Part shown: positions 26,251 through 31,935 of the stretch, piece by piece
Numbering within the stretch: the stretch's first letter is position 1
Layout of the letters: the number at the start of each line of letters is the position of its first letter
Assembly: GCF_001530125.1 (NCBI RefSeq)
Contig: NZ_LDUG01000002.1
Coordinates: 1 to 64,000, forward strand
Reading direction: 5' to 3'
Origin: Thiobacillus denitrificans
GTDB taxonomy: Bacteria; Pseudomonadota; Gammaproteobacteria; Burkholderiales; Thiobacillaceae
DNA: 64,000 nucleotides
Notes under the pieces: generated by a model
The model's input: the letters and a program-made list of their open reading frames with translations, nothing else
Database searches by the model: none
Told to the model about the DNA's origin: nothing
Translations under genes and position numbers: made by a program

Positions 26251-28755
26251 TCAGTCCACCGGTAGCGGCGCCGGCCGATGCAGCAGATAGCCCTGGACGA
26301 AATCGACGCCCATTTTTTTCAGGCAGCCCAGTTCCGCCTCGGTTTCCACCTGTTCGGCGATGGTCTGCTTGCCCAGCTCGTGCGCCAGCGTGTGCATGGC
26401 TTTGACGATGGCAAATTTTTCGCGGTCGTGATCCATCCCGCGCACAAAATCGCCATCGATCTTGAGGGCGGTCACCGGCAGGCGTTTCAGGTAACCGAAC
26501 GAGGACTGCCCCTTGCCGAAATCGTCCAGCGCGAACTGAATGCCGCGTGACTGCAGCGTCAGGATCAGTCGCTCGCAGGCATCCAGGCTGTCGATGGCAG
26601 CGGTTTCGGTGACTTCAAAGCTGATCCGTGCGGGATCGAAATGGTACTGGCCGATTTCATCGAGAATGAACCCTGCCATGCCCGGATCGCTCAGGCTGCG
26701 GCCCGACAGATTCAGCGCATAACAGGCTTCATCGTCTGGATGGGTGTCGAGATAGGCGAAGAAATTGCGGATCACCCAGCGGTCGAAGCTGGGCGCCAGC
26801 CCGTAACGCTCGGCAGCCGGCAGGAACTCGCCCGGCTCGATAATCGAGCCATCCTCACTATGCAAGCGCAGCAGGATTTCATAATGCTGCGCTGTGATGT
26901 CCGGCGCGTGCGTGGTTGTTGGCGCATACGATTCCACATGGGCTTTAGCCCATAGTGGATCGGAGTCCTTTAGGGCTTCAGCGCCAGTACAAACACGGCC
27001 TCGCCCTTGCGGGGGCAGGGCCACTTTCTGCTGGCGATACAGGACAAACCGATGCGCCTCGAACGCCTTGGTGAGCGTGCTGACCCACTGCATTTCGTCA
27101 TTGATTTTCCGTAGCGCGGGGTGGGTTTTTTCATATACCTGGATGGCGTTTCCGCCCAGCGATTTGGCGTGATAACACGCGGTATCGGCCTGCGCCAGAA
27201 TTTCACCGATATCGGTCATGCCGCTGTGCAGCTCGGTCACCCCGAAGCTCACCTCGAGCCGGAACACCTTGTCGTCCCACTCGAAACGGAAGCGGCTGAT
27301 TTCGTCGCGCAAGCCCTGGATATGGTCGAGCGCCTGCGGCAGCGTGGCATCGACGAACAGCAGGCCGAACTCGTCGCCCCCCAGTCGTGCCAGAGTCTGA
27401 TTTTCACCCTCTGCGCGGCGCGCCATGATGGCGGTCAAGCGCTGCAGCAAGGCATCCCCCGCACGGTGGCCGCAGGTGTCGTTGACCAGCTTGAAACGGT
27501 CAAGGTCGATGTAGCAGAAGATAAAGCGCCGCGCCTCATGCTGCACGCTGTGCAGCGCTGCAGAGAGCTTGTTTTCCATTGCGCGGCGGTTCCACAAACC
27601 GGTCAGGTGATCGCGTTCGGCCTGCCAGGCCAGCCGCTGCATCAGGCTGCGCCGCTCGCTCTCGTCCTGGAACACCAGCACGCCGCCCAGCACCTTGCCG
27701 TCGCCCGAGCGTATCGGCGCGGCGGTGTCGCTGATCGCAATGGTCGCGCCATCCTGCCGGCGGATCACCGTATGGTTGTCCAGTTCGACCACCGTATTGC
27801 GCCGCAGCGCCTGGTCGAGCGGACTGGTGACGGCTGCACCGCTTTGCTCGTTGAAGAGAGGCAACACGTCGGCCACCCGTTGCCCCCGCGCATCGGCACT
27901 GCTAAAACCGGTCAGTTCTTCCGCCCGGGGATTGAGAAACTCGATCAGGCCATCCGCATCGGTGACCATCACGGCATCGCCAATCGACTCGATCGTCACC
28001 CGCAGGCGTTCCTTTTCGACCAGCAGTTCGCCATGCTCGCGCTCCAGCGCAGCCACCAGGTGGCTGACGTGATCGGCCATGTGGTTGAACGCCAGCTTGG
28101 TCTCGCGCACTTCCGGTGGCGAGCCATGCGCCAGGCTGGCACGTGCGCTGAAATCTCCCGCCTCGATTGCCCGCGCTGCGGTGCGCAAGGCATACAGGCC
28201 GCGCAGATTGACCCGCAGCAGCCAGCGCAGCAACAGCATGACCGCAGCCAGACTGCCAACCGCCAGCAGGGTGAAGCGCACGGCCAGCACCCACAGGCCC
28301 TGGATGGTCGGCCCGGCGTCCAGCGCAACCGCCAGCGTGCCATAGGCGGTGCCGCCCACCACCAGTTCGGACTGTGCATGGGGCGCGCGGAGTTCCAGCA
28401 GCGTGGCGAACCAGGCCGGATAGCGCTGCGGATCCGGCAGCGTGCGCGCTTCGAACGCGACCTGCGGGGTCGCGAAACGTGCGCTCAGAATTCTGGAATC
28501 GCGTGCGCGCGCCTCGATCGTCTGTTCGATGGCGGGGTAATCGCGCAGCAGCACCTGGTCCTGAATCGCCGTCATCAGCGCGCTCAGTTCGCGTTCGGCG
28601 CCGATGTCGAGATTCTGTTGCGCGCGCGCCTTGAGCGGCAGGCCCAGCACCGCCAGCGTGGCCAGATACATCACCAGCACCAGCACGAATACCGCACCCA
28701 GAATGCGGGCCTGCAGACTGTAATGCGTGCTGCGCGCCGCTTGCGGCTCACTCAT
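26251..28755 (-). CDS. Membrane sensor GGDEF-EAL protein (HAMP-PAS-GGDEF-EAL)
   Basis: 834 residues. Membrane helix about 17-40, periplasmic domain about 41-158, helix about 159-182, HAMP about 183-235, PAS about 245-370, GGDEF domain about 380-545 with intact GGDEF at 459-463, EAL domain about 565-830. The EAL ligands E626 (EIL), N682, E714, D744-D745, K765, E801 and Q821 are present, so both cyclase and phosphodiesterase activity are possible. Residues about 580-619, inside the EAL domain, are an unusual insert encoded by palindromic repeat DNA. The ATG overlaps the upstream PhnD-like gene by eight bases, suggesting the binding protein feeds the periplasmic sensor. Confidence 0.9.
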   Translation of the reverse strand: MSEPQAARSTHYSLQARILGAVFVLVLVMYLATLAVLGLPLKARAQQNLDIGAERELSALMTAIQDQVLLRDYPAIEQTIEARARDSRILSARFATPQVAFEARTLPDPQRYPAWFATLLELRAPHAQSELVVGGTAYGTLAVALDAGPTIQGLWVLAVRFTLLAVGSLAAVMLLLRWLLRVNLRGLYALRTAARAIEAGDFSARASLAHGSPPEVRETKLAFNHMADHVSHLVAALEREHGELLVEKERLRVTIESIGDAVMVTDADGLIEFLNPRAEELTGFSSADARGQRVADVLPLFNEQSGAAVTSPLDQALRRNTVVELDNHTVIRRQDGATIAISDTAAPIRSGDGKVLGGVLVFQDESERRSLMQRLAWQAERDHLTGLWNRRAMENKLSAALHSVQHEARRFIFCYIDLDRFKLVNDTCGHRAGDALLQRLTAIMARRAEGENQTLARLGGDEFGLLFVDATLPQALDHIQGLRDEISRFRFEWDDKVFRLEVSFGVTELHSGMTDIGEILAQADTACYHAKSLGGNAIQVYEKTHPALRKINDEMQWVSTLTKAFEAHRFVLYRQQKVALPPQGRGRVCTGAEALKDSDPLWAKAHVESYAPTTTHAPDITAQHYEILLRLHSEDGSIIEPGEFLPAAERYGLAPSFDRWVIRNFFAYLDTHPDDEACYALNLSGRSLSDPGMAGFILDEIGQYHFDPARISFEVTETAAIDSLDACERLILTLQSRGIQFALDDFGKGQSSFGYLKRLPVTALKIDGDFVRGMDHDREKFAIVKAMHTLAHELGKQTIAEQVETEAELGCLKKMGVDFVQGYLLHRPAPLPVD
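26934..27032. repeat. Palindromic repeat cluster inside the GGDEF-EAL gene
   Basis: TGGGCTTTAGCCCA (26939-26952) sits in a longer imperfect palindrome (26934-26959). A second imperfect palindrome with GGCC ends covers about 26997-27022. The tract encodes the insert between two normally adjacent EAL-domain strands, in frame. Confidence 0.5.
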
Positions 28756-29584
28756 TCACGGGCACCTGGGTGTGCTTGAAAAAATTCCGGTAGTTGCTGT
28801 AGTCGCGGTCGTCCGCCACGACAAAACCGCGCGCCTTCGACAACCCAAGCGACTGCGCCGCCCGTTGCAGCACGCGCAGCCCTTCCGGGTCGTGCGCCAT
28901 ACTAACAAAGGCCTGGCGGATTTTTTCGCCGTCGGCCGCGCTAACTCGCGGCGAGGCCATCACGGCCAGGTCGAAATACGGTTCCGACTCGGCCAGAACG
29001 CGGTACTTCAACGCACGACGCTGGGCGAAATCGGCCATCACCTGATGGTTCACCCCGGCCGCTTCCACTTGGCCCGACATGAGCTGCCCCATCGCCGCCT
29101 CCTGGTTGCCGGCAAACACCGGCGAAACCTTGACGCCGGCACGCAACAGCGTATCCATCGGCACGTAATACCCGGTGAAGCCATACGGATTGGCAAATGC
29201 GACAGATTTTCCAGTCAGTTCCTGCAGCGTCTTGATCGGCGAACTGTCGAGCACCACCACCTGCCCGCGAATGCCCTGCGTATCCTGCCGTGCCAGCACA
29301 CGCCAGCCCAACTGATCACGCTTCGGCGTAAACAGATGATTGGTGTAGGCAAAATCCAGCTGTCCGGCCACCACGCGGTCGGTGGTTTCGTTGGCGGTGC
29401 GCCCGATATGCAGCTCCAGCGGCACACCGGAACGCGCCGACACATAATTCAGAATGGGATTCCAGTAAGCTGCGGTCGACTGCAGGCTGCGATGATTGAG
29501 CACGCCAAAGGCGTAAGGGATGGGGGGGGCTGCCTGACTCGCGGTGCTCAGCATCAAGGCCAGGCACATCCATATTCTTTTCAC
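28748..29584 (-). CDS. PhnD-like periplasmic phosphonate/phosphate-binding family protein
   Basis: 278 residues from GTG at 29584, preceded by GGGAGA; an in-frame ATG at 29596 is possible but has no ribosome site. Signal peptide (IWMCLALMLSTASQAA), then a PBP2 fold of the PhnD/SsuA2 type: VLNHRSLQSTAAYWNPILNYVSARSGVPLEL, RTANETTDRVVAGQLDFAYTN, LTGKSVAFANPYGFTGYYVP. No ABC permease or ATPase lies nearby. It overlaps the GGDEF-EAL sensor gene, so a role as periplasmic ligand sensor subunit is more likely than transport. Confidence 0.85.
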   Translation of the reverse strand: MKRIWMCLALMLSTASQAAPPIPYAFGVLNHRSLQSTAAYWNPILNYVSARSGVPLELHIGRTANETTDRVVAGQLDFAYTNHLFTPKRDQLGWRVLARQDTQGIRGQVVVLDSSPIKTLQELTGKSVAFANPYGFTGYYVPMDTLLRAGVKVSPVFAGNQEAAMGQLMSGQVEAAGVNHQVMADFAQRRALKYRVLAESEPYFDLAVMASPRVSAADGEKIRQAFVSMAHDPEGLRVLQRAAQSLGLSKARGFVVADDRDYSNYRNFFKHTQVPVNE

Positions 29585-29778
29585 GTTGTCTCCCATGAGC
29601 TTTTATTGAACTGCAGTTTTATTGCGCGTCGAGTGTACCGTGTCGCCCCGCAATTTCTCAAATGAACGGGGCAGTTTGGGGGGCCGGCTGCAATAACGGA
29701 CAAAAGCGCGCCCATATTGAATTCGCGCGTGTGGCATGAACTAGAATCACCAAACTATTTTTTATCGCTGCGGAGTTC

Positions 29779-30741
29779 ATCATCGACTGCCTGCTCTTCC
29801 ACGATTCCAAGTCCCAAGCCATCGCCCTGGACGATATCAGCGATCATATCGGCCAGCCGGATCGCTTCATCTGGGTCGAACTCAAATCGCCCGACAGCCA
29901 GACCATTACGCATCTGGGCGATGAGCTCGGCTTGCATGCGCTGGCGCTGGAGGACGCGATTTCCACCCACCAGCGTACCAAGCTCGAGGAATACGACAAA
30001 CACGTTTTCATTGCCACGCGCACGGTGCAACTGTGGGAATCACGCATGGAACTCGGCGAAACGCACTTGTTTGTCGGAAGCAATTACGTCGTCGCCATCC
30101 GTCACGACAGCGGCAGCGGCTACCAGCGGGTGAGCGAGCGCCTGCAGGCGGCAAGAAACGGCATCAAGCCGGGCGCGCCCTACGCGCTATACCTGGTGCT
30201 CGACCTCATCGTCGACCAGTTCAGGCCGGTGATCGAAAGCATGCAGGACCGGTTTCAGTCACTCGAGAGTCAATTGATGAGCGGGGCAAAATCGGGGCGC
30301 GACACGCTGGAACGGCTATACGCCATGAAACGCGACCTGACGACGTTGCGCGACGTCGCTGAACCGATGCAGGACATCACGCAGGACCTGATCCGCCTGC
30401 ATCCCGGGTTGTCCACCAAGGAACTCAAGGCCTATTACCGCGATGTGCAAGACCATGCGGTACGCGTGTCCGCCGCCATCGATCGCCTGCGCATTTCGAC
30501 CTCGGACGCGATGCAGTTCCACCTCGCCTCGTTGTCGGTGAAGCAGAACGAATCGGTGCAGAAGCTGGCGGGCTGGGGGGCGCTGCTGGCGCTGCCCACG
30601 GTGGTGTTCAGCCTCTATGGCATGAATTTCATCAACATGCCCGAACTGAAATGGCCGTGGGCGTATCCCGCCTTGATGCTGGCGACCGGTGCGGCAGTGA
30701 TCGTGCTGTATCGGCGGCTGAAGCGGCGCGGCTGGATCTGA
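29779..30741 (+). CDS. CorA-family divalent cation transporter, no canonical start codon
   Basis: About 320 residues, full family length only if translation starts near 29779. The frame there reads ATC ATC GAC TGC; the conserved family start would be M-I-x-C. Between the in-frame TGA about 40 bases upstream and TTG 29932 there is no ATG, GTG or TTG. A GGAG at 29772-29775 stands three to six bases before the ATC codons. The body is intact: EDAISTHQRTKLEEYDKHVF, a long helical stalk, and the YGMNF signature (GMN at 281-283) between two C-terminal membrane helices, ending in a basic tail. Starting at TTG 29932 would remove about 50 conserved residues. Confidence 0.8.
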   Translation: MIDCLLFHDSKSQAIALDDISDHIGQPDRFIWVELKSPDSQTITHLGDELGLHALALEDAISTHQRTKLEEYDKHVFIATRTVQLWESRMELGETHLFVGSNYVVAIRHDSGSGYQRVSERLQAARNGIKPGAPYALYLVLDLIVDQFRPVIESMQDRFQSLESQLMSGAKSGRDTLERLYAMKRDLTTLRDVAEPMQDITQDLIRLHPGLSTKELKAYYRDVQDHAVRVSAAIDRLRISTSDAMQFHLASLSVKQNESVQKLAGWGALLALPTVVFSLYGMNFINMPELKWPWAYPALMLATGAAVIVLYRRLKRRGWI

Positions 30742-30756
30742 ATCCGAAATAAAGGC

Positions 30757-31935
30757 TCAGCGCCGCTCGGCGCGCGCATAGCGGATGCGCGCGCCGGCCG
30801 CCTCGTCGCGATCCAGCCACACCACATGCAGCGCGCCGGCCGCATCCAGCGTCGCCACCGGATCGGACTGCCCGCCCGGCCCGGTTGCCGCCGGCACCGC
30901 CAGATCATCACCGAACGCCTCCCCTTCCCATTCGGACAGCCACACGTCCGGCGTGCCGTCGCGGGCGTCGTCCCACAGCGCCACCAGCCGGCCAGCCGCA
31001 TCGCCGACGACCAGCGCATGCCATTGCGCCATGTTGTCGCCGAAGTTATCCTGCACCCGGATGTTCTTGCCGAAGCGGCGCGTTCCCGTATCGAACGCTG
31101 CAAAGACATCGTAGCCGGAGAGGAAGTCGCGCTTGTCGAGCCACACCGCGGCAATGCCCTGTTCGCCCCAGGCCGTGAGCGTCGGGCGCATCGCGCCGGT
31201 GCCGGCGCCGAGCCCGTCGACGCTGCCGCTCTTACGGTCGGTGAGGCGGGCCGGCGGCGTAAACTGCCGGCCATCCGGGCGATGACTCACCATCGGCACA
31301 GTATGGCGATGACGACGGTCTTCCCACACCACCGTCACGCTGCCGTCGCCGGCCACGGCCAGCGCGGGCCAGCCCTGTTCGTCGACCGGCATCGCCGCTT
31401 CGACCGGCTGCGCCGATTTCACGCTCAGCGTGTCGCCTTTCAGCGCCAGCCTTGCAACGACGATGCGGCGGAAGCGTCCGGCCTGCTCGGCCCACGCCGC
31501 ATAGAGCGTGTGATCGCGCAGGGCCAGCGTCACCTGCGCCGCCTCGGTCTTCGAAAGCTGCAGCGTCTTGCCGCCGGGCATCACCCGGGCATGCACCTTG
31601 CCGGCTTCTTCCCAGGCGGCCACAAAACGGCCCGCGCCCAGGGCCATCACCACCGGTTCGTAACATTCGGCCTTGCTCAATTGAGTTTCCGGCTGAAAGT
31701 TCGCCGCCGTGGCCGACTTCATTGCCAGATAGCACTGCGGGCTGCCGCTACGATTGTCTTCCCACACCACGCCCACGGTGCCGCCCGACACCGCGACGCC
31801 CTGGCGGTTGGCTGATTCCAGGTGCGGGAAAATCGCCGAACCCTGAACCGAATTGACGGTAAGCGGCTCGCTCCAGGTCCACGCGGCGTGCGCCGGCCAC
31901 GCCAGCGCCGCCAGCAGCAGCGCGGCCGCCCTCAC
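30757..31935 (-). CDS. Exported sialidase-like beta-propeller protein
   Basis: 392 residues with a signal peptide (LLLAALAWPAHAA). At least seven recurring blade motifs end in W-x-D/E: VVWEDNRSG, AAWEEAG, AAWAEQAG, VVWEDRRH, AVWLDKRD, ALWDDARDG, VVWLDRDEA. This resembles BNR/sialidase-type beta-propellers, but the Arg triad and Tyr nucleophile of sialidases are not evident, so a binding role is more likely. The ATG overlaps the stop of the upstream thioredoxin-like gene by four bases, suggesting an exported two-protein unit. Confidence 0.75.
   Translation of the reverse strand: MRAAALLLAALAWPAHAAWTWSEPLTVNSVQGSAIFPHLESANRQGVAVSGGTVGVVWEDNRSGSPQCYLAMKSATAANFQPETQLSKAECYEPVVMALGAGRFVAAWEEAGKVHARVMPGGKTLQLSKTEAAQVTLALRDHTLYAAWAEQAGRFRRIVVARLALKGDTLSVKSAQPVEAAMPVDEQGWPALAVAGDGSVTVVWEDRRHRHTVPMVSHRPDGRQFTPPARLTDRKSGSVDGLGAGTGAMRPTLTAWGEQGIAAVWLDKRDFLSGYDVFAAFDTGTRRFGKNIRVQDNFGDNMAQWHALVVGDAAGRLVALWDDARDGTPDVWLSEWEGEAFGDDLAVPAATGPGGQSDPVATLDAAGALHVVWLDRDEAAGARIRYARAERR

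Follow-up and report, generated by a model that had tools for sequence, protein, structure and literature searches.

A probable AUC start codon conserved on the corA-like transporter gene of Thiobacillus

Where does translation of a corA-like gene begin when its frame holds no ATG, GTG or TTG codon ahead of a conserved N-terminus? The question is raised by a locus in the window, the 64,000-nucleotide stretch of Thiobacillus denitrificans DNA analysed here (contig NZ_LDUG01000002.1, positions 1 to 64,000), for which the initial annotation had described a CorA transporter apparently starting at ATC, with no canonical start codon from the preceding in-frame stop to TTG 29932. Direct reading of the letters and of the translation bears this description out. 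The corA frame runs R-V-A-stop (TGA, 29737-29739, plus strand)-T-R-I-T-K-L-F-F-I-A-A-E-F-I (29779)-I (29782)-D-C-L-L-F; ATG, GTG and TTG are absent from it between that stop and TTG 29932, the first in-frame canonical start in the window, which lies 50 codons past 29782. A GGAG motif had also been pointed out directly ahead of the ATC ATC pair, and it is found at 29772-29775 (plus strand), at gaps of 3 nt to the ATC at 29779 and 6 nt to the ATC at 29782, with a duplex energy of -6.1 with the 16S tail.

Counted from 29782, the gene (29782-30741, plus strand) consists of 319 codons and a stop and encodes a 319-residue protein of the CorA family. The product matches PF01544 (1.6e-55; 188.9 bits, exceeding the gathering cut-off of 27) and is the sole PF01544 match found in the genome. 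It also matches the corA equivalog profile TIGR00383 (5.1e-56) with 190.3 bits, below the curated cut-off of 200.75, so that Mg2+/Co2+ specificity is left unclaimed here. Positions 4-320 of TIGR00383 align to residues 6-319 and, because the alignment starts from profile position 4 at residue 6, the N-terminus looks complete. CorA-like transporters carry a GMN motif near the C-terminus; YGMNF and MPEL are both present in this protein. The upstream neighbour is a divergent gene for a phosphonate-type periplasmic binding protein (28748-29596, minus strand), and a 392-codon frame convergent with corA (30757-31935, minus strand) gave no Pfam match at 0.001. Two genomes of the genus contain a second CorA-like gene, a distant one with 28% identity (G046:C13:8470-9363 and G006:C232:4733-5623).

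The start region was compared across 53 distinct corA orthologue rows of the genus, in which rows sharing the same 300-base core count once; a corA match was present in 53 of the 56 genus genomes (none in G001, G008 and G011). ATG occurs at codon -1 or -2 in five of the 53 rows, namely at codon -1 (29779) in L123, L124, L126 and L127 and at codon -2 in L133. Among the other 48 rows, which lack it, 44 carry ATC and three carry ATA at codon 0 (29782), and in L054 the ATC sits one codon earlier. The ATC at 29782-29784 (plus strand), conserved as ATC or ATA in nearly all of these 48 rows, is thus the proposed start codon. The preceding codon reads ATC in 30 of them and ACC, GTC, GCC, AAC, CAC, CCC or CTC in the remaining 18. 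Because the codon at 29779 drifts in this way (not ATN in 18 of the 48), the start is best placed at 29782; the ATC at 29779-29781 (plus strand), 3 nt after GGAG, is probably not the start and was set aside as a candidate. Of the proposal that translation starts within the ATC ATC pair, the AUC start therefore stands, and the position moves to 29782. Among distant genera, ATG occupies the 29782 column in, for example, L135, L196, L197, L201 and L203, and GTG does so in L200, which agrees with this being the start column.

Conservation of ATC at codon 0 is by itself no proof of a start, because the isoleucine codon 18 is conserved equally well (ATC in 40 of 41 ungapped rows). ATT is found at codon 0 in only three rows, all of them ATG-bearing, and in the four species of the ATG clade codon 0 is an ordinary isoleucine codon. 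The isoleucine codons of the genus corA genes are 80% ATC, 17% ATT and 3% ATA. The lack of ATT in 47 rows has p 0.0002 under independence, although the rows are related, and three ATA codons are not unusual (0.17); codon usage was accordingly given no weight as proof of the start. Directly before codon 0, all 47 corA rows considered, L054 and the ATG-bearing five being excluded, have C, and the infC genes of the genus also have C before their start (CTC ATC).

Mean variability at codon positions 1/2/3, calculated over the 41 ungapped rows, is 0.56/0.60/0.62 for codons -14 to -7, 0.18/0.13/0.27 for codons 1 to 12 and 0.07/0.06/0.28 for codons 13 to 24, and this drop around codon 0 indicates that coding begins about there. 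The Shine-Dalgarno duplex energy is -3.8 or lower in all 48 rows (mean -6.2), whereas this level is reached at 138 of the 629 internal ATC or ATA codons of the same corA genes (mean -2.6). GGAG itself is present in 32 of the 48 rows and GG[AGT]G in 44. Energies in the nested ATG clade of four range from -1.5 to 1.2 (mean -0.1), L133, also with ATG, has -3.2, and the 30 outgroup corA rows average -2.5 (range -6.4 to 1.2).

In 29 of the 48 genus rows, the 8 codons ahead of codon 0 hold no canonical start, versus 0 of the 30 outgroup corA rows, where the start was taken as the nearest canonical codon up to 8 codons upstream of the column and may be misplaced in L190 and L202, which have a further canonical codon upstream. 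In 16 of the 48 rows, no canonical start exists at all between the upstream in-frame stop and codon 0; L112, L113 and L118 have an in-frame stop 6 codons upstream, and none of the codons between is canonical. The other 19 rows of the 48 carry TTG, GTG or ATG 4 to 8 codons upstream, 13 of them TTG or GTG at codon -6 and two ATG, which could be used in those species, though not in the window. In addition, TTG at codon -10 could serve as a start in L114 and L117. Early canonical codons downstream are found in L130 (ATG at codon 6) and L129 (GTG at codon 10).

Could translation then begin at another nearby codon, with codon 0 a mere isoleucine codon? Candidates are ATC 29779, ATC 29764 and CTG 29791 in the window, together with, in some relatives, TTG, GTG or ATG between codons -4 and -10. 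The 19 rows with a nearby upstream canonical codon speak for such a start, as do TTG at codon -6 in 12 of the 41 ungapped rows, the start at codon -1 in the four-species ATG clade and the 29 rows in which ATC at codon -1 directly precedes ATC or ATA, so that the equivalents of 29779 and 29782 are hard to separate there. However, none of these positions is common to all rows: 18 of the 48 lack ATN at codon -1, the 16 rows without a canonical codon up to the stop offer no such start, and CTG at codon 3 is found in 34 of the 41 rows, with the window's CTG 29791 sitting 15 nt from GGAG. Where TTG stands at codon -6, moreover, the GGAG-like stretch falls downstream of it. A nearby codon is considered an unlikely start.

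Initiation at TTG 29932, with the first 50 codons left untranslated, has in its favour that this is the first in-frame canonical start in the window. Yet codons 1 to 49 are under purifying selection, and a protein begun at this TTG would align only from position 27 of PF01544 and position 52 of TIGR00383, losing 26 and 22 bits, respectively. The next downstream canonical start, moreover, falls at codon 50 in just six of the 53 rows and elsewhere anywhere from codon 6 to codon 138. On conservation and domain coverage this start was rejected, and we regard it as very improbable. An assembly error or a pseudogene is harder still to credit. Single broken copies do exist: L053 has an in-frame stop at codon 254 in an otherwise intact copy, which is either a broken gene or an assembly error, and one TAG was noted in L017, a record similar to L053. 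However, 48 of the 53 genus rows share this start region, so that the error that had been considered, beside an ATG-to-ATC change, as the alternative to AUC initiation is excluded. The frame is open in the window, and 52 of the 53 rows, the window among them, are free of internal stops and retain GMN; in this count, 23 rows reach no farther than the final matched codon, with their own stop outside the view. Finally, ribosomes might be brought from an upstream reading frame by frameshifting or coupled translation. Among the rows inspected, corA does follow closely behind a gene ending in L-P-F-stop, presumably a phosphomannomutase gene, in L036, L046, L112, L113, L116 and L119. In the window, by contrast, the upstream gene is divergent, and ATG and GTG are absent from all frames of the 34 nt before the start, as in 34 of the 48 rows overall (TTG not counted); delivery of ribosomes from upstream is accordingly given very little credence. 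The gene thus occurs in two settings, with a -10-like element of its own in 38 of the 48 rows (see below) and close behind another gene in others; AUC is kept in both, so that it is tied to corA itself rather than to a particular upstream arrangement.

A candidate promoter element, the -10-like hexamer TAGAAT, is located at 29742-29747 (plus strand), and TA[AG]AAT is found about 33 to 43 nt upstream in 38 of the 48 rows, compared with a mean of 0.6 and a maximum of 4 of 48 in mononucleotide shuffles; ten rows lack the element. Between the element and codon 0, no canonical start is present in 21 of these 38 rows. If used, TAGAAT would start the transcript 3' of the in-frame stop at 29737-29739. 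A consensus promoter scan listed no plus-strand promoter here, its single listed promoter being on the minus strand, so that this candidate -10 rests on conservation. As a separate observation, L123, L124, L126 and L127 have neither GGAG nor TA[AG]AAT upstream of corA, and part of their farther upstream sequence resembles the window's divergent neighbour.

The history of the start codon was traced on a maximum-likelihood tree of 83 corA rows. L133, with ATG, is basal in the genus and flagged as a long branch; all other genus rows have AUC or AUA save a four-species ATG clade. This clade (98/82) and the ATC rows L121 and L122 together make up a clade of six rows (100/100) that is nested inside the AUC rows. 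ATG in relatives at 29779 or 29782, named in the initial annotation as evidence against an ATC start, is thus seen at 29779 in four of the 53 genus rows, all in one nested clade. A single gain of AUC after the split of L133 and a basal gain followed by loss in L133 would both fit the counts, and AUA arose twice on the tree. AUC accompanies a strong Shine-Dalgarno sequence, and ATG came back once as the Shine-Dalgarno sequence went. This pattern fits selection that keeps initiation at a similarly low strength, with very few events behind it: the trade-off rests on few independent changes, because the gain and the loss of AUC are single events.

A parallel is provided by infC, which encodes IF3. 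Among the 51 genus genomes matching, 48 infC loci were read (L147-L177 and L237-L253), with the partial matches in G002, G029 and G008 left out. The start is ATC in all 48, with GGAG 7 or 8 nt before it; in 45 of the 48, the preceding 8 codons are free of canonical starts, and downstream the first canonical codon comes at codon 18 or 20. Outgroup infC loci (L254-L278) were matched in 25 of 27 genomes, and the start was ATC in 15 and ATA in nine of the 24 loci read, L264 having been missed by the motif. Because ATC or ATA is found in outgroup genera too, the near-cognate start of infC looks old; the AUC start of corA, in comparison with the outgroup genera examined, was found in Thiobacillus only. 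The pcnB gene was tried as a further near-cognate case in Thiobacillus and rejected, its start being ATG in 30 of 30 genus loci, a result showing in addition that ATC starts are not an artefact of the method. An altered initiator tRNA reading AUC was likewise rejected: a pattern search of the window's own genome gave one exact initiator anticodon arm, called by ARAGORN as tRNA-Met (cat), that is, the ordinary CAU. One additional hit carried a mismatch that did not fall on the anticodon position; as three hits came from the reversed control, one-mismatch hits are considered noise.

The absence of alternative starts, the onset of constraint at 29782, the Shine-Dalgarno sequence in 48 of 48 rows and the infC parallel together support AUC initiation as originally proposed. 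On this comparative evidence, we consider it likely that the AUC at 29782 is the genuine, conserved start of Thiobacillus corA. In mechanistic terms, the ordinary initiator tRNA, with its CAU anticodon, would read AUC 29782 through a third-position mismatch, and the strong Shine-Dalgarno sequence 6 nt upstream would enable initiation there. The weak AUC codon, discriminated against by IF3, would keep CorA output low, and CorA synthesis would accordingly be both low and sensitive to IF3. According to PMC4611024, AUG, GUG and UUG are the triplets spared by IF3 discrimination, and AUU, AUC and AUA are named as the remaining bacterial start triplets. In PMC10158994, more IF3 in vitro results in a smaller share of correct product at third-base mismatches, the case cited here being AUU, not AUC, with CAU. 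The AUC start probably holds CorA at a low level, as bacteria limit IF3. We infer initiation at AUC, lowered output and modulation by the IF3 level, and with them a regulatory role of the AUC start, as the initial annotation had suggested.

How does corA compare with known near-cognate genes? Beside infC, pcnB is the textbook case of a near-cognate start. Like corA, infC combines a conserved non-canonical start with a Shine-Dalgarno sequence, and the two share ATC in Thiobacillus. However, infC encodes the discriminating factor itself and corA a transporter; and outgroup infC starts are near-cognate in all 24 loci read, whereas outgroup corA has a canonical start within 8 codons in 30 of 30 rows. 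PMC13009471 describes conserved near-cognate starts in Staphylococcus aureus, AUA in infC, AUU in cvfC1 and AUA in ccpN, that accompany extended Shine-Dalgarno motifs; the non-canonical starts tested in reporters reached about 10% of the AUG level in poor medium, and ccpN up to 30% in rich medium. The ccpN and cvfC1 genes thus resemble corA in a conserved near-cognate start with a strong Shine-Dalgarno sequence, and theirs cut output by reporter. They differ in encoding a regulator or a small protein, in using AUA or AUU and in belonging to another phylum, whereas corA encodes a membrane cation transporter and would use AUC. In Escherichia coli pcnB (AUU), an inefficient start codon limits expression according to the title of a work in the reference list of PMC13009471; this is another gene, whose Thiobacillus counterpart has ATG. 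AUC initiation had been called very rare, a wording that needs softening, because PMC13009471 records conserved near-cognate starts for infC, pcnB, ccpN and cvfC1. The putative AUC start of corA would be an addition to this class. A search of the literature by titles and abstract openings found no report of an AUC start on corA, which leaves the absence of such reports unproven.

It seems doubtful that corA and infC form a small AUC start-codon regulon, in which free IF3 and magnesium, which sets subunit association, tune CorA synthesis; were this true, the ribosome itself would be a magnesium-responsive sensor for a cation transporter gene. The magnesium link of the AUC start is speculation. 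The genus offers a natural experiment, with AUC and a strong Shine-Dalgarno sequence in most of its members versus ATG in a nested clade without the Shine-Dalgarno sequence. Gene finders limited to ATG, GTG and TTG, such as the ORF lister used here at its default, cut such genes short, and further near-cognate genes may therefore be hidden. To our knowledge, few bacterial genes on record keep a start codon rejected by IF3, and a genus-wide AUC on a cation transporter gene would bring a new sort of gene to this short list.
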